From contig MVRL01000155.1 of assembly GCA_002067705.1 (NCBI GenBank), forward strand, positions 1 through 36,927: a stretch of 36,927 nucleotides of DNA, read 5' to 3'. Below are positions 28,763-36,927 of this stretch, piece by piece. A model generated the notes under the pieces. It worked only from the letters and a program-made list of their open reading frames with translations. It was not told the DNA's origin and ran no database searches. Numbering within the stretch: position 1 is the stretch's first letter; each line of letters begins with the position of its first letter. The stretch is from Methanosaeta sp. PtaU1.Bin112. GTDB taxonomy: Archaea; Halobacteriota; Methanosarcinia; Methanotrichales; Methanotrichaceae. The position numbers and the translations under genes were made by a program.

Positions 28763-28845
28763 CTCAGACGGATCTGCAATGCTCATGATAGACTTATGAG
28801 CTGATATTGAGGTATGCCCCATCGGGATATTATATTTATATGCAT

Positions 28846-29085
28846 GATGGCAGCATCCGAAGAGATTGCAGACCCGAGAGCAATATGGTGTCCCATAAAT
28901 CAGGGCCACTGCAGCTAAAACCGAGGTTGACCAAATTCACTCACTTTGCAAAGGCAGCTCCAGTAGGCCCGCCCGCCTCAGGAGCTGGCAGCCCTCCAGC
29001 ACCCGGATCGGAGCCGCCGACCGCCGGGCAGACGGGCGGGCCTGCTAGCTTTGCGGGGTGACGGGAGAAGAGGGCGGGATTTTGT
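28846..29085 (+). repeat. GC-rich dispersed repeat, copy A (decayed methyltransferase tail)
   Basis: First of four related copies. It begins with GGCAGCATCCGAAGAGATTGCAGACCC, matching copies B and D, and continues through CCCATAAATCAGGGCC, CCCGCCCGCCTCAGGAGCTGG and GGGTGACGGGAGAAG. One plus-strand frame reads RPPQELAALQ, the start of a methyltransferase-like tail, but is interrupted by stop codons. It lies between cobN and the beta-propeller gene and supplies no intact gene. Confidence 0.75.
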
Positions 29086-29190
29086 GTAGGTAGATTGATG
29101 AATAGCTTTTTTTCGAAAAGACCCAGAATTATCGCCATTAATACGGATAGATGCATATACTACTTACGACATTTACCCTCAGTGATGCAT

Positions 29191-30864: not shown

Positions 30865-31256
30865 TCCTCAACGAAGAGCAGAATGTTGGCGGCACCCAAA
30901 GAGATTGCAGACCCTGTGCAAAATTTCAAAGCCTTCAGAGAGCCCCATAAATCCGGGCCATTGCCGCTAAAACCGAGGTGGATTAAATGCACTCACTCTG
31001 CAAAAGCTGCCCTAGTAGGCCCGCCCGCCTCAGGAGCTGACCGCCATCCAGCGCCGGAACGGGGCCGCATACCGGCGGGCTGACGCGGGCCTGCGAGCTT
31101 CAGGGTGACGGAAGAAGGGGGAGCTGGATTGCGGAAGGAAATTGAAACGAATGACAATAGCATTGTGAAAAGACTCACAACATCGGAATAATCTCTTTGA
31201 AGACCAATCCGCTCAAGTTCGAGAACCTTCAAGACTTCATAAAATGCTACAATCCA
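30829..31256 (+). repeat. Dispersed repeat, copy B (longest)
   Basis: Contains all segments of the family in order: TTCCTCCGCAAGCTTTTTCG, a GGCGGCACCCAAAGAGATTG segment, the CCCATAAATCCGGGCC segment, the GC-rich methyltransferase-tail segment (QELTAIQRR readable, stops upstream), then NDNSIVKRL and the hsdM C-terminal start. It overlaps the hsdM remnant at 31197. Confidence 0.75.
31147..31191 (+). pseudogene. hsdM N-terminal scrap (TNDNSIVKRLTTSE)
   Basis: Fifteen codons reading T-NDNSIVKRLTTSE and a stop. The paralogous copy at 32865 reads MNDNSIVQRLNASE. Both resemble the first residues of type I methyltransferase subunits (x-SNIVQKLWN). The ATG has become ACG here. It is followed six bases later by the hsdM C-terminal fragment, as if the middle of the gene had been removed. 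Confidence 0.45.
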
Positions 31257-31487
31257 GAGAACAGACACCAAAGAGAGGAGAGCGAGAGGTTCAAGGCATT
31301 CAGCTACGAGGAGCTGGTGAGGCGCGACAAGGCCAGCCTGGACATCTTCTGGCTGAAGGACGAGAGCCTGGAGGATTCGGATAACCTGCCTGCGCCTGAG
31401 GTGCTGGCGGCGGAGATCGTGGAGAGCCTGGAGACGGCGCTGAGCGAGTTCCGGGCGATATACGAGGAGCTGGGGGAAAAGCAGTGA
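31197..31487 (+). pseudogene. hsdM: C-terminal fragment of type I restriction methyltransferase HsdM
   Basis: 96 codons from a TTG: TNPLKFENLQDFIKCYNPEN, then FSYEELVRRDKASLDIFWLK and LEDSDNLPAPEVLAAEIVES. This is the characteristic C-terminal region of HsdM/N-6 DNA methylases, in which D-K-x-S/N-L-D-I-F-W and D-N-L-P-x-P are strongly conserved. The roughly 400 upstream residues with the SAM-binding and NPPF motifs are missing. With no catalytic domain it cannot methylate DNA alone. The open frame may persist by chance or as a small protein. It is followed at 31543 by an antitoxin-like gene. Confidence 0.75.
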
Positions 31488-31542
31488 AGGACGGGCGCGA
31501 GGAGAGAGCTGACGCAGAGAATAAAGAGGAGATGATTGTCCA

Positions 31543-31710
31543 ATGGCAGCCAGAAGCGAGGTCATAGTAACAACAGATGAGCCCTTTGATGAGTTCGCAG
31601 CTCTTGAAGAGGAGGATGAATCCACGGCGGAAGAACTCCATGCGCTCATAGAACGCGAAAGAGGCGAGTTCATCAGCCTTGAAGAATACCGCGCTCGACG
31701 TGGCATTTAG
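31543..31710 (+). CDS. Small antitoxin-like protein, 55 residues
   Basis: Starts MAARSEVIVTTDEPFDEFAA and ends EFISLEEYRARRGI. The C-terminal motif, acidic-x-[FY]-[IM]-[SD]-[LF]-[DE]-E-[YF]-x-x-x-x-G-[IF], recurs in the small genes at 32507 and 33555. The leader GAGGAGATGAT before the ATG is nearly the same as at 32507. Size, acidity and the pairing of the second copy with a RelE-like toxin suggest an antitoxin family. No toxin gene lies next to this copy, so it may be an orphan. Function is inference. Confidence 0.6.
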   Translation: MAARSEVIVTTDEPFDEFAALEEEDESTAEELHALIERERGEFISLEEYRARRGI

Positions 31711-31830
31711 AAAATTTATTTGCCGTTTTCAAGAATCGGGTTCAAGCATCAGCCAGCCAATCCTGTAGCCCGGCGGATAAGAGATAGAGAAAATGACTGA
31801 TAGCAGTCATGTGCTGTTTTATGCTTCAAG

Positions 31831-32202: not shown

Positions 32203-32475
32203 GTGGCATTTAAGGTAGCGATTTCTCTTTCGGCCCAAAAATACATGAAGAGCCTCGATAAGCCTGATGCAAGGAAGATCAAGGCCCGTATCAATGAGTT
32301 GAGGCAAGATCCATATACGCCCCGGCCACAATGTGATATCCTGAAAGAAAAAGGAAAGAGACCGCCACTTTATAGAATGAGAGTCGGGAAACATCGCGTT
32401 GAGTTCTTCATCGAGGGGGACACGATTTTCGTATCCAGGATGTTCCTGAGATCTGGTGATTCAGATTATAGTTAG
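32203..32475 (+). CDS. relE: RelE/ParE-family toxin
   Basis: 90 residues from a GTG start with GAGAGG upstream. AISLSAQKYMKSLDKPDARK, INELRQDPYTPRPQCDILK and YRMRVGKHRVEFFIEGDTIF follow the RelE pattern of two helices and a four-stranded sheet, with the basic residues R-x-x-V/G-K-H-R used for ribosome-dependent mRNA cleavage. The ending (SRMFLRSGDSDYS) differs from the usual H-R-x-x-x-Y, so activity is uncertain. The antitoxin candidate follows 31 bases downstream, the reverse of the usual relBE order. Confidence 0.82.
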   Translation: MAFKVAISLSAQKYMKSLDKPDARKIKARINELRQDPYTPRPQCDILKEKGKRPPLYRMRVGKHRVEFFIEGDTIFVSRMFLRSGDSDYS

Positions 32476-32506: not shown

Positions 32507-32635
32507 ATGGCCGCAGAAATTGCCAACCAAGTCCTCACGGATGAAGAATATGCCGATGTGGAATATAGGCGTTTTCTAAAAGAGAAAGACAAGTACATGG
32601 ACTTTGATGAGTTTTGCCGGGTAGAAGGGATTTGA
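32507..32635 (+). CDS. Putative antitoxin of the RelE-like toxin, 42 residues
   Basis: MAAEIANQVLTDEEYADVEY, then YMDFDEFCRVEGI. GAGGAGATGAT provides the ribosome site. It shares the closing [DE]-E-[YF] motif and C-terminal Gly-Ile with the gene at 31543. Toxin first and a short acidic partner second suggests a toxin-antitoxin pair. It lacks a visible DNA-binding domain, so it may only neutralise the toxin. Confidence 0.65.
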   Translation: MAAEIANQVLTDEEYADVEYRRFLKEKDKYMDFDEFCRVEGI

Positions 32636-32737
32636 TCACTTCGATTTCTATCCCCGTTTTTGATATCATAACTTAAAAAAAAAATACTTGCTTGAACGCA
32701 TGAATCTCCTTTTAAATCTGCTGAATTCCCCGCGAGA

Positions 32738-32975
32738 GCTGCCCCATGCGGCCCGCCCGCTTCAGGAGCCGGATCGAGGCCGCAGACCGCCGGACAGACG
32801 GGCGGGGCTGCGAGCTTTGCGGGGTGACGGGAGAAGGTGGGCGGGATTGTGAAAGGAAAATGAAATGAATGACAATAGCATTGTGCAAAGACTCAACGCA
32901 TCAGAATAATCTCTTTGATGACCAATCCGCTCAAGTTCGAGGACCTGCAGGACTTCATAAAATGCTACAATCCAT
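32738..32975 (+). repeat. Dispersed repeat, copy C (best-preserved reading of the tail end)
   Basis: Contains the GC-rich segment with a deletion of about 18-24 bases after CAGGAG. Its frame reads RIEAADRRTDGRGCELCGVT followed by GEGGRDCER, aligning position by position with the R-Q-I-E-A-T-D-R-Q-I-D-x-L-V-Y-E-L-Y-G-L-T-x-E-E-I ending of many DNA adenine methyltransferases. It then runs into the hsdM remnants at 32865-32977. Confidence 0.7.
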
Positions 32976-32977: not shown

Positions 32978-33028
32978 CCAATCAGGGAAAACAGCCAAAT
33001 AGATTGTCGATACATACCAAGAGTGACT

Positions 33029-33553
33029 ATGAAGCTAAAGATAAAGATTGCTGGTCCAAAAGTGCATGATGTAGGCTACCGTGTATTCCTGCTAAAAAAT
33101 GCCATGAACCTTGCCCTACCCGGATTGTCTACCTACAACTGGGATGAGTGCGGCCAACAAGAGGTTATCGCCCTGGTGGAAGGTGATGAGGCCAGAATCG
33201 CGCCCTTCTTACAGGCTATTGAGAAGAATAAGCCGGAGCTGGCCAAAGTCTCTAAGGTGACATCTGAGCCCTACGACGGCGATGTTGGACGAACCATTGA
33301 GATGGCCATGCTCTGCTCATTTGTTCAACTGGATAAGGCTGTACCGCTACTTCTGAAGATCCAAGAGAATACCACCGTGATCCCTCAAATAAGTGAGGAC
33401 ATCAAGGCAGTGCGGAAGAATACCGACACAATTCCCCAGGTACTGGAAGAGATCAAGGGCCTGAGAGAAGACATCCAACCGGGATACGGAATGACTCTTG
33501 GGCAGGTGCAGTCAGATATCAGAGCCATAAAAGAACGGCTCGGGATGATATAG
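33029..33553 (+). CDS. Acylphosphatase-domain protein with helical tail
   Basis: 174 residues from the ATG at 33029 (a GTG two codons earlier is also open). KIAGPKVHDVGYRVFLL carries the acylphosphatase signature with its phosphate-binding Arg (VGYR), and TYNWDECGQQEVIALVEGDE matches the second signature with the catalytic Asn. Acylphosphatases hydrolyse acyl phosphates such as acetyl phosphate. From about residue 100 an alpha-helical tail with near-repeats (NTTVIPQISEDIKAVRKN, NTDTIPQVLEEIKGLRED) suggests a coiled coil and oligomer formation. Longer archaeal forms of this kind exist. Its stop is one base before the antitoxin-like gene at 33555. Confidence 0.8.
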   Translation: MKLKIKIAGPKVHDVGYRVFLLKNAMNLALPGLSTYNWDECGQQEVIALVEGDEARIAPFLQAIEKNKPELAKVSKVTSEPYDGDVGRTIEMAMLCSFVQLDKAVPLLLKIQENTTVIPQISEDIKAVRKNTDTIPQVLEEIKGLREDIQPGYGMTLGQVQSDIRAIKERLGMI

Positions 33554-33554
33554 G

Positions 33555-33671
33555 ATGGCACGCAAAGAGGGTTTAATGGCGGCTTATGCAGATGAGCAAT
33601 ACGGCAAGCTACAGAGAGAGAAGGATCAGCACATATCCCTTGATGAGTATTGCGCCAAACGCGGCTTTTAA
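33555..33671 (+). CDS. Small antitoxin-like protein, 38 residues
   Basis: MARKEGLMAAYADEQYGKLQ, then HISLDEYCAKRGF. The last twelve residues match the motif of the genes at 31543 and 32507. One base separates it from the acylphosphatase-domain stop, so the two are translated from one message. Either the acylphosphatase protein is its partner, or it is an orphan antitoxin carried along by duplication. Confidence 0.5.
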   Translation: MARKEGLMAAYADEQYGKLQREKDQHISLDEYCAKRGF

Positions 33672-33703
33672 AAGGGGCGGGGTTTAGGATCGAAATGGAC
33701 CAA

Positions 33704-34014
33704 ATTCCTCCGCAAGCTTTTTCGTGAGAAATGCAAATAGCTTTTTTTTGTACAGAAAATATTTGGCGGCACCCGAAGAGATCGCGGACGTTGAGTAGAG
33801 ATTCGAAAGCAATAGATCATCCTGCAAGTCAGGGGCTTTGCAGGGAAATCCAGGGTGGATCAAATGCACCGACTCTTGCAAAGGCATCCCCATGCGGCCC
33901 GCCCGCCTCACGAGCTGGCCGCCCTCCAGCGCCGGATCGAGGCCGCAGACCGGCGGGCTGACGCGGGCCTGCGAGCTTTATGGGGTGACGGAAGAAGGTG
34001 GGCGGGATTGTGAG
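33704..34014 (+). repeat. Dispersed repeat, copy D
   Basis: Opens with TTCCTCCGCAAGCTTTTTCG (frame FLRKLFREKCK and a stop), passes through GGCGGCACCCGAAGAGATCG, then the GC-rich segment. An open frame here reads MHRLLQRHPHAARPPHELAA, LQRRIEAADRRADAGL; a single frame change continues it as CELYGVTEE. That is the clearest match to a methyltransferase C-terminal tail among the four copies. It lies directly before the mrr gene and may carry its promoter. Confidence 0.75.
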
Positions 34015-34056
34015 AAAAAACGTTGGCCAAAAGGATGAATTATTAGAGGTTCAATA

Positions 34057-34983
34057 ATGCCTGTTCCGGATTTCCAAAGCTTCATGCTACCGCTATTGAA
34101 ATTTGCAGCAGACCACGAGGAGCATACGAAAAGTGATGCATCAGACGCATTAGCGCTTCACTTCAATATCGTTGATGCAGATCGAAAAGAAATGCTTCCA
34201 AGTGGGAGGCAGACCCGATTTAACAACCGCATCGCTTGGGCCATCGTTTATCTGAGGAAGGCAAAGTTCCTAGAAAGCACCAGACGTGGTCGTTTCAAGA
34301 TAACTGATCGTGGCTTTGAGATCCTCAAGTCGAATCCTCCCAGGATTGATGCCAAATACCTGATGCAGCATGGAGACGCAGAATTCAAAGAATTTCATCA
34401 ACCGTCTCGTCGCAATGGAAATCAAAGCGAGGAACATGACGATGCCGATGCAGAAGTAGTCCGTACACCAAGAGAGGTCATGGATGCTGGCTATCAAGAG
34501 ATGAGACGAGATTTATCCCAGGAACTATTAACCAGGGTCAAGAGCTGTCAACCTCAATTCTTTGAGCAGCTAGTTGTCGATCTTCTAGTCGCCATGGGTT
34601 ATGGTGGATCTCTAAAAGATGCAGGAGAGGCCGTAGGTCAAAGCGGCGATGGTGGAGTAGATGGCATTATCAAAGAAGATAAGCTTGGATTGGAGGCAAT
34701 CTACCTGCAAGCCAAGAGATGGGAGAACACAGTAGGTCGTCCTGTTGTGCAGGCTTTCGCGGGCAGTCTAGATGGCTATAGAGCAAAGAAAGGAGTGCTG
34801 ATAACAACATCTCAGTTCTCCCCAGAAGCGAAAGACTATGTCAGTAGGATCGAGAAAAAGATTGTTCTGATAGATGGAGAAGAACTTGCCAAGCTCATGA
34901 TCGATTATGGAATTGGCGTAGCTACTGATGCCGTCTATGAAATTAAGAGACTGGATATGGATTACTTTGAGGGAGAGCTATGA
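34057..34983 (+). CDS. mrr: Mrr-type restriction endonuclease
   Basis: 308 residues. An N-terminal winged-helix domain (Mrr_N-like, about 1-95, LPLLKFAADHEEHTKSDASD and SGRQTRFNNRIAWA) is followed by an acidic linker and a PD-(D/E)xK domain (about 165-285). Catalytic residues visible are FFEQLVVDLLVAMGYGG, D202 in GDGGVDGII and Q218/K220 in IYLQAKRWE; Q-x-K in place of E-x-K is the Mrr form. Mrr enzymes cut DNA carrying methylated bases. The next gene begins at the ATGA overlap, so the two products are probably made in fixed proportion and act together. All expected residues are present. Confidence 0.93.
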   Translation: MPVPDFQSFMLPLLKFAADHEEHTKSDASDALALHFNIVDADRKEMLPSGRQTRFNNRIAWAIVYLRKAKFLESTRRGRFKITDRGFEILKSNPPRIDAKYLMQHGDAEFKEFHQPSRRNGNQSEEHDDADAEVVRTPREVMDAGYQEMRRDLSQELLTRVKSCQPQFFEQLVVDLLVAMGYGGSLKDAGEAVGQSGDGGVDGIIKEDKLGLEAIYLQAKRWENTVGRPVVQAFAGSLDGYRAKKGVLITTSQFSPEAKDYVSRIEKKIVLIDGEELAKLMIDYGIGVATDAVYEIKRLDMDYFEGEL

Positions 34984-36764
34984 CCGATGTTGAGCGCCAA
35001 TATTGGCTATGGGTGACTCGCCCTGATTACTATCTGGATGAAGATGGCTGTGATCGAGAAGATCTTGATCCTACATTAGGGGCTGACTCAGATGGTTGGT
35101 GGACCTGCAATAAAGCAACCAAACAAGGGGATTTAGTCCTCTTATGGAGAACATCACCTAAAAAAGACATCCGCTATTTAATCCAGGCAGAGAGCGATGC
35201 TTATTCTATTGCAGACAATAATGATCATGGGTGGGACTATGGCTGCGATTATGAAGTGCTTTATAAATTCGAACATTCCCTTCATGTAAAGGACCTTCGC
35301 CAAAATCCCTATTTTGATGAGTGGGGGCCCCTTCGATGCAGTTTCCAAAGAAGTAATTTTAAAATATCTCCAGAATATTGGGCAAAACTCAATAATTTGC
35401 TTGCCTTGAACAATCCAGGATATCAAGAATTCATTGAGAAAACACAACGGCAGTCAATAGCGGAAAGCATAGGATTGGAGAAAGAACTAGAAGATGCTTT
35501 GGTAAGCAATTTAGGAATTTTAAAAAATTTTGGATATAATCTTGAATTATATGATGATCTGATTACAAATCAATCCGGAAGACAGTTTATCTGCAAAGGG
35601 AATGGCGGGCGGATTGATCTGCTTTGTTATGATCAAACAAAAAAACGATATGTGGTTATAGAGCTGAAAAACGTGCGTGCTAGCCAAAACACCTTTGGTC
35701 AAATCTCTAATTACATGGGATGGGTGCAAGATAGAATTGCTAAGAGTGTTCCTGTTAAGGGGCTTGTAATAAGCAGAGGTTATGATACTCGATTTGAGTC
35801 TGCTCTTAAGACAACGGATAAAATAGGCCACATTAACGTAGAAGAGCTTGGATTCTCAGTTGCACCTTCAATTAAAGCTCAGAAAGTTATTGATTTCAAG
35901 AATTCCGATCAAACAAAAATGAGAATCCCCAAATCCCGCGAAGCAAGCAAATGGGTCAAGAAAGGAGATGACTTATTTGATCAAGGGAAATATAACGAAG
36001 CCATTTCATGCTATGATAATGCCATAGAAAAAGATCCCAAGAACAAATTGGCATGGGTGAATAAAGGAGCCGCCTTATTAGAATTGATGGAGTCTGATGA
36101 TGCCATATCCTGCTTTGATAAAGTCACAGAGTTATATCCCAAATCTGCTGAAGCATGGAATGGAAAAGGCTATGCTCTAAATAGACTGGATCGGTTTGAT
36201 GAAGCCATAATCGCTTTTAATAAAGCCATTGAAATAAATCATAAATCAGCGGACGCCTGGAACGGCAAAGGCATAGCTCTGGACAATTCTGGAAAGCATG
36301 ATGACGCCATTCAAGCCTATGAAAGAGCTATAGCAATAAGACCCAAGTTCGATGAAGCATGGAATAATAAGGGTTGGGCTTTAGCTGGCATTGGCAGGAG
36401 CGAAGAAGCTATCCAGGCTTATGATAATGCAATTGCGATTGATTCCAAAAATCCAAGCTCCTGGAAATGCAGAGGAAATGCACTGGCTGACCTTGGCAAG
36501 CATGATGAAGCGGTAAAAGCATACGATAAGGCCCTTGAGCTAGATCCAAAAGATGCAATTCTCTGGAATAACAAGGGCACTGCACTATTTGGCCTGCTAA
36601 TGTATGAAGAGGCACTTGAAGCTTTTAACAAGGCTATTGATATCAATCCACAAGAGGCATTTATTTGGCATTTCAGAGGCGAAACCCTGAAGGCGCTTAA
36701 TCGGTCTGAAGAGGCAGATGCAGCCTTTTCCAAGGCCAAAGAGCTGGGATATAATGAGGAATGA
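34980..36764 (+). CDS. EVE-like domain + NucS-like nuclease + eight TPR repeats
   Basis: 594 residues. Domain 1 (about 5-145) opens YWLWVTRPDYYLDEDGCDRE, with WWTCNKATKQGDLVLLWRTS, and resembles EVE/PUA-like readers of modified bases. Domain 2 (about 165-295) is a PD-(D/E)xK nuclease like the NucS/DUF91 catalytic domain: E168/E171 helix, D213 in GRIDLLCYD, E228-x-K230 in VVIELKN and Q241. Domain 3 (about 322-590) is eight 34-residue TPR units with W-x-x-K-G-x-A-L and D-x-A-I-x-x-Y/F-x-x-A-I-x-x-x-P. TPRs usually mediate protein contacts, here perhaps with the Mrr protein. The start overlaps the mrr stop. The gene is AT-richer than those to its left, a sign of transfer. I infer recognition and cutting of modified DNA; the EVE call is the least certain part. 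Confidence 0.85.
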   Translation: MTDVERQYWLWVTRPDYYLDEDGCDREDLDPTLGADSDGWWTCNKATKQGDLVLLWRTSPKKDIRYLIQAESDAYSIADNNDHGWDYGCDYEVLYKFEHSLHVKDLRQNPYFDEWGPLRCSFQRSNFKISPEYWAKLNNLLALNNPGYQEFIEKTQRQSIAESIGLEKELEDALVSNLGILKNFGYNLELYDDLITNQSGRQFICKGNGGRIDLLCYDQTKKRYVVIELKNVRASQNTFGQISNYMGWVQDRIAKSVPVKGLVISRGYDTRFESALKTTDKIGHINVEELGFSVAPSIKAQKVIDFKNSDQTKMRIPKSREASKWVKKGDDLFDQGKYNEAISCYDNAIEKDPKNKLAWVNKGAALLELMESDDAISCFDKVTELYPKSAEAWNGKGYALNRLDRFDEAIIAFNKAIEINHKSADAWNGKGIALDNSGKHDDAIQAYERAIAIRPKFDEAWNNKGWALAGIGRSEEAIQAYDNAIAIDSKNPSSWKCRGNALADLGKHDEAVKAYDKALELDPKDAILWNNKGTALFGLLMYEEALEAFNKAIDINPQEAFIWHFRGETLKALNRSEEADAAFSKAKELGYNEE

Positions 36765-36927
36765 ATCAATGATTTGCAGCCATATCGCGCAGCTCACCCA
36801 AAGCATCAGCCAGTTATCCCTGAATCCGGGGTAAGAGGAGATCAAGAAAAAGGATGGTGGCAGTTCTGGAAGTAATTATAGTTAAAAACCTAACTAATTT
36901 AACTTATTTCTATGTTTAAAAATTTTT

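Follow-up and report, generated by a model that had tools for sequence, protein, structure and literature searches.

The gene pair at the contig end

The window analysed here, a stretch of 36,927 nucleotides, is the entire contig C155 of a 3.4-Mb genome, and it stops 163 bp past the second of two nuclease genes on the forward strand. The first gene (34057–34983) encodes an intact Mrr-type restriction endonuclease of 308 amino acids, and the second (34980–36764) an intact protein of 594 amino acids composed of an EVE domain, a PD-(D/E)XK nuclease domain and an array of TPRs. Both frames are open and the start of the second overlaps the stop of the first by 4 bp (ATGA), exactly at the coordinates given in a preliminary description of this DNA, which had reported two nuclease genes overlapping by four bases. 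The same description had called the pair AT-rich, which applies to the second gene and not to the Mrr gene (GC content 39.2% at positions 35001–36000 vs 46.2% at 34001–35000).

The Mrr polypeptide unites an Mrr_N domain (residues 6–91, positions 34072–34329; Pfam PF14338, 103.9 bits) and an Mrr_cat PD-(D/E)XK domain (residues 162–281, positions 34540–34899; Pfam PF04471, 133.3 bits), and it is matched over its full length by the PADLOC type IV mREase model (mREase_IV, 305 bits). The catalytic residues D202 and Q218-x-K220, previously described as intact, are all kept and are invariant across 29 aligned homologues. Mrr enzymes cut DNA with non-self methylation patterns. A sequence search of solved structures with Mrr yielded zero matches. 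A second Mrr of the same genome (G000:C182:3892-4368) is 80% identical and truncated to residues 1–159.

In the second protein, the EVE domain, a predicted modified-base reader (residues 7–137, positions 34998–35390), is matched by PF01878 with 26.2 bits (cut-off 23); the score rises to 27.8 bits with residues 1–310 alone as query, and the match is found in five of five rows of A1, an alignment of the EVE-nuclease relatives. The YhcG_C/NucS-like nuclease domain (about residues 166–290, positions 35475–35849) contains D213 and E228-x-K230 and is matched by YhcG_C PDDEXK (PF06250) with 34.6 bits against a cut-off of 32.5 (query residues 1–310), whereas NucS_C, with a cut-off of 24, reaches 22.8 bits in the window protein and 26.0 bits in a relative from genome G005. 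The TPR array (about residues 326–590, positions 35955–36749) is recognized by the Pfam families TPR_1, TPR_2 and TPR_8. The domain order deduced earlier from the letters, an EVE-like N-terminus followed by a NucS-like PD-(D/E)xK nuclease with these residues and eight TPRs, was thus recovered, with YhcG_C in place of NucS_C above the cut-off and 7–8 repeats in Pfam instead of a firm eight. EVE domains are members of the PUA superfamily, whose proteins read modified bases; they can bind modified RNA as well, so that DNA as the target is not certain.

The second gene is under purifying selection: dN/dS is 0.066 and 0.08 against two relatives over the EVE domain and the start of the nuclease, 0.144 for the remainder of the gene and 0.156 for the TPRs. 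The long frame, the three named domain types, purifying selection and the existence of homologues together indicate that this open reading frame did not arise by chance. An AlphaFold2 model of residues 1–310, computed from a two-sequence input only, had a pLDDT of 32, which makes the outcome of a Foldseek search with it (zero matches at E ≤ 0.001) uninformative; the A1 profile found zero matches among the sequences of solved structures. Relatives of the EVE-nuclease were absent from phage records and from viral contigs, and there is accordingly no sign that the protein is virus-borne.

Decayed methyltransferase tails upstream of the pair

The region before the pair had been described as a graveyard of restriction-modification (RM) genes, and it proved to be one with a definite structure, consisting of four decayed type IIG methyltransferase tails, a type I HsdM tail and a fragment of the latter, all on the forward strand. 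An nhmmer search with a profile of type IIG gene 3′ ends from related genomes detected four tail copies with 34.7–72.2 bits, compared with a best score of 6.3 in 300 shuffles. They are located at 28926–29103 (47.6 bits), 30977–31182 (57.9 bits), 32739–32915 (34.7 bits) and 33854–34055 (72.2 bits, E 1.8e-22), the last of which also matches a methyltransferase C-terminus in tblastn and stops 1 nt short of the start codon of Mrr. The segment at 31192–31743 comprises the last ~98 codons of a gene that we take to be hsdM, a naming based on family knowledge of the HsdM C-terminus and not on a family-library score, plus ~250 bp beyond; it shares 93% identity over 555 bp with contig C147 of the same genome (G000:C147, L179:1942-2496), where the tail closes a full-length HsdM frame. 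The second HsdM tail fragment, at 32910–32973, measures 64 bp and has the same 5′ start (L179:1942). Between the tails lie a ParE-type toxin gene (32203–32475; PF05016, 25.9 bits) and an acylphosphatase-domain gene (33023–33553; PF00708, 38.4 bits), and direct repeats of up to 169 nt extend between 28.8 and 34.0 kb. Mrr, with the EVE gene, is one cassette of this unusual array, in which a copied methyltransferase tail stands before each of the defence-type genes.

Several smaller features were seen in the same region. Three small open reading frames (31547–31711, 32508–32636 and 33556–33672), each in a different segment of the array, have similar end motifs (SLEEYRARRGI, DFDEFCRVEGI and SLDEYCAKRGF) that appear antitoxin-like by eye. 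Repeats at 28844, 30883 and 33760, just before tails, resemble the N-terminus of type IIG proteins (LAAPKEI...; tblastn E 0.01 for one copy) and look as if whole type IIG genes had lost their middle. A 64-nt repeat with 70% identity follows both the EVE gene (36801–36864) and the HsdM-tail cassette (31744–31807); it possibly marks a cassette end and is short enough to have arisen by chance. An interpretation of the repeats as a genome-wide element was rejected, as a 646-bp unit recurs five times more on the contig and at two short places in the rest of the genome.

Distribution of the two genes in related archaea

Conservation was surveyed in 50 genomes of the order and, with a profile, in 393 phylum genomes. 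Mrr was found in 26 of the 50 order genomes and the EVE-nuclease in about five, with close relatives of the EVE-nuclease region in G016, G005, G004 and G032 and shorter or weaker matches elsewhere; the search of the phylum genomes revealed no further protein spanning both the EVE and the nuclease domain. A scan of genome contigs for exact peptide patterns, a method of limited sensitivity, returned a single relative. The complete EVE-nuclease-TPR architecture is present in two other Methanotrichaceae genomes, the copy in G016 being split by a frameshift and that in G005 carrying one in-frame stop. Two of the three TPR-bearing copies are thus broken, which may mean that the family is decaying, the window copy being intact. 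The G004 copy ends straight after the nuclease and lacks TPRs, and the G032 copy is cut off by the contig end. Three EVE proteins (L021, L022 and L060) have an HNH nuclease in place of PD-(D/E)XK, the Pfam EVE score being below the cut-off in L021 and L060.

Tail arrays in related archaea

Orphan tails accompanied by toxin-antitoxin or defence genes are not confined to the window, but were seen in ten or more related genomes and also in a second family of archaea (L122, L123, L147-L160, L165-L167). The type IIG genes concerned are of the Eco57I/TaqI_C kind (PADLOC type IIG, 705 bits), and in 14 of the 16 examined the final 240 nt of the gene recur at least once, on the same strand, in the 7 kb that follow it. 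Among 102 other long open reading frames, four had such copies; two of the four are again type IIG genes and one is transposase-like, and the idea that long genes in general duplicate their tails was therefore rejected. The best-preserved copies start either ~224–236 nt (class 1) or 528–597 nt (class 2) before the stop, the two classes having been defined after the data were seen, and mostly end near the stop. The tail starts where the TaqI_C recognition domain ends (residues 822–970 of 1047, 985–1107 of 1296 and 769–886 of 962). At fourfold-degenerate sites the tails agree more often than the gene bodies (0.65 vs 0.46 in class 1, 0.65 vs 0.57 in class 2), and the recognition domain is the most divergent part of the type IIG genes, both of which are expected if the tails recombine. 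Either homologous recombination between tails or the action of a site-specific recombinase would fit the data. The arrays stem mostly from draft genomes, and one cluster (C0) mixes gene types.

The genes located between tails encode PIN, ParE/YafQ, HEPN, AF2212-like and Mrr proteins in Methanothrix relatives, and HicAB, PemK, GmrSD, Schlafen, TIR and NucS proteins in another family (L165-L167). The same cassettes reappear behind different type IIG genes in varied combinations. Mrr is found near tails in G034, G030, G016, G085, G094 and G260, and in G027 an intact type IIG methyltransferase gene directly precedes it. We also considered whether the tails are left over from methyltransferases that had different recognition domains and discarded this idea, since the end of a toxin gene is often situated 20–35 nt before a tail. 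In addition, at L164:2906-3859 (G094:C64) the last 243 nt of an open reading frame of 318 codons are repeated ~2.8 kb downstream with 97% identity.

We tentatively propose, at somewhat less than even odds, that methanogens and related archaea possess a gene-capture platform not described so far, which carries the pair as cargo and uses methyltransferase tails, of type IIG or of type I HsdM, as the recombination site. The capture site in a type IIG gene would comprise everything after the target-recognition domain; a captured toxin-antitoxin or defence cassette would bring its own tail, thereby restore the methyltransferase gene and displace the old tail downstream, and defence genes would in this way come to be strung behind an RM gene in arrays like those of integrons. 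The literature, which was covered in part, gave no description of such arrays, which is weak evidence of novelty, and the tail-cassette pattern seems more novel and surprising than the gene pair itself. If methyltransferase tails do gather defence cassettes, this would explain the growth of defence islands next to RM genes in these archaea and would make orphan methyltransferase tails a simple signature in the search for new defence genes.

Proposed function and alternative explanations

The window contains two intact overlapping nuclease genes, whose products probably target foreign DNA with modified bases. The reading that we prefer, with a probability of roughly 60%, and which is also the simplest, is that they encode two type IV-like modification-dependent nucleases which form one cassette of an archaeal defence array. 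It is favoured by the Pfam domains above their curated cut-offs, the PADLOC type IV mREase assignment and the invariant Mrr residues, by the low dN/dS of the second gene, by the recurrence of the EVE-nuclease in G016, G005 and G004 away from any Mrr, by the published EVE-PD(D/E)XK fusions and by the position of Mrr next to a type IIG gene or near tails in other genomes. Mrr, with its Mrr_N domain and D...QxK PD-(D/E)XK core, would cut DNA with a non-self methylation pattern; in the second protein the EVE domain would inspect a modified base and the NucS/YhcG-like domain would cut nearby, and the TPRs may provide a scaffold for oligomerisation or partner binding. Modified-base recognition, DNA cleavage, a role against viruses and the function of the TPRs are all properties that we infer for the pair. 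The 4-bp overlap implies co-transcription and translational coupling, so that the two products would share their dosage but need not form a complex. Their pairing would be a local assembly, as Mrr and the EVE-nuclease are each located elsewhere beside different RM genes.

Alternatively, the EVE-nuclease-TPR protein might be an accessory of type I, II or III RM operons, for example one that cuts DNA or RNA upon wrong modification, its adjacency to Mrr being incidental. In G016 the EVE gene sits 38 bp past a type III mod-res pair (L017:9126-15337), the NucS-domain relative on an Acinetobacter plasmid lies inside an hsdM-hsdS-x-Abi-hsdR cluster, the Sphingobium NucS-domain gene on pTK7 abuts a methyltransferase gene, and standalone EVE proteins have been found with type I systems (Bell, Wolf and Koonin 2020; PMC7641849). 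We nevertheless regard this role as unlikely, as no intact RM operon adjoins the EVE gene in the window, in G005 or in G004, and the nuclease residues argue for an effector in its own right.

The preliminary description had proposed a two-gene system. In such a dedicated system Mrr and the EVE-nuclease-TPR protein would form one complex, in which the TPRs hold Mrr and the EVE domain confers specificity on both. The ATGA overlap and the absence of a tail copy between the genes would agree with it, as would a loose and nearest parallel, the 3.6-kb contig of G085, which carries in order a type IIG tail, GmrSD, an EVE-HNH gene and, directly downstream of the latter, Mrr. The G085 Mrr is 70–79% identical to the window Mrr, compared with about 45–60% for other families of the phylum, and this contig may therefore be misbinned. 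Against a dedicated system stands the unequal distribution of the two genes, which adjoin each other only in the window at the level of family, order and sampled phylum, so that the pair is not a conserved system and the claim of one, which the preliminary description had itself made dependent on co-occurrence in other genomes, was not borne out; in G016 the EVE gene is ~0.88 Mb away from an Mrr remnant, and in G004 and in G032 (83% complete) Mrr was not detected. On this evidence a joint complex appears decidedly improbable.

That the pair is degenerating and has no current function in an RM graveyard is very improbable: the surrounding tails are decayed, the G016 and G005 relatives are interrupted and the second Mrr of the genome is truncated, but both window genes are open, their catalytic residues are kept and dN/dS of the EVE-nuclease-TPR gene is low. 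On the preferred reading of two modification-dependent nucleases in one defence cassette, the EVE-nuclease-TPR protein is an intact and testable candidate with a distinctive architecture, from a methanogen lineage in which few defences have been studied.

Comparison with known systems

The Mrr protein shares with type IV restriction endonucleases of the Mrr kind the full-length two-domain match and the D-QxK core; it differs in that its gene overlaps an EVE-nuclease gene, and cleavage of methylated DNA is for the window protein a prediction. NucS/EndoMS is distantly similar in the nuclease core (NCBIfam NucS, 25.2 bits, residues 209–277), but this score is far under the equivalog cut-off of 216 and the N-terminus of the window protein is an EVE domain. 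The NucS-domain proteins of bacterial RM loci from Acinetobacter (WP_058952590.1, aligned over residues 42–282) and Sphingobium (WP_081876348.1) combine a NucS/YhcG-like nuclease with a location in an RM cluster, but they lack TPRs, and Pfam reports EVE in neither.

The published EVE-PD(D/E)XK fusions have been interpreted as putative type IV restriction enzymes (Bell, Wolf and Koonin 2020; PMC7641849) and bear out the earlier statement that EVE domains are fused to restriction nucleases. They have in common with the window protein an EVE and a PD-(D/E)XK domain in a single polypeptide and a defence context, whereas the C-terminal TPR array and the overlap with Mrr set the window protein apart from them; the main text of that paper mentions neither NucS, Mrr nor TPR. 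The TPR fusion and the pairing with Mrr, for which the preliminary description had named no system, look like a new variant of the published fusions.

The arrays as a whole resemble integron cassette arrays in their tandem small toxin-antitoxin and defence genes, in the repeat shared at the cassette borders and in the reuse of cassettes behind different head genes. They differ in the nature of the repeat, which in the archaeal arrays is a 3′ coding segment of a methyltransferase of about 220 or 540 nt, and the likeness is based on the repeats and the reused cassettes.
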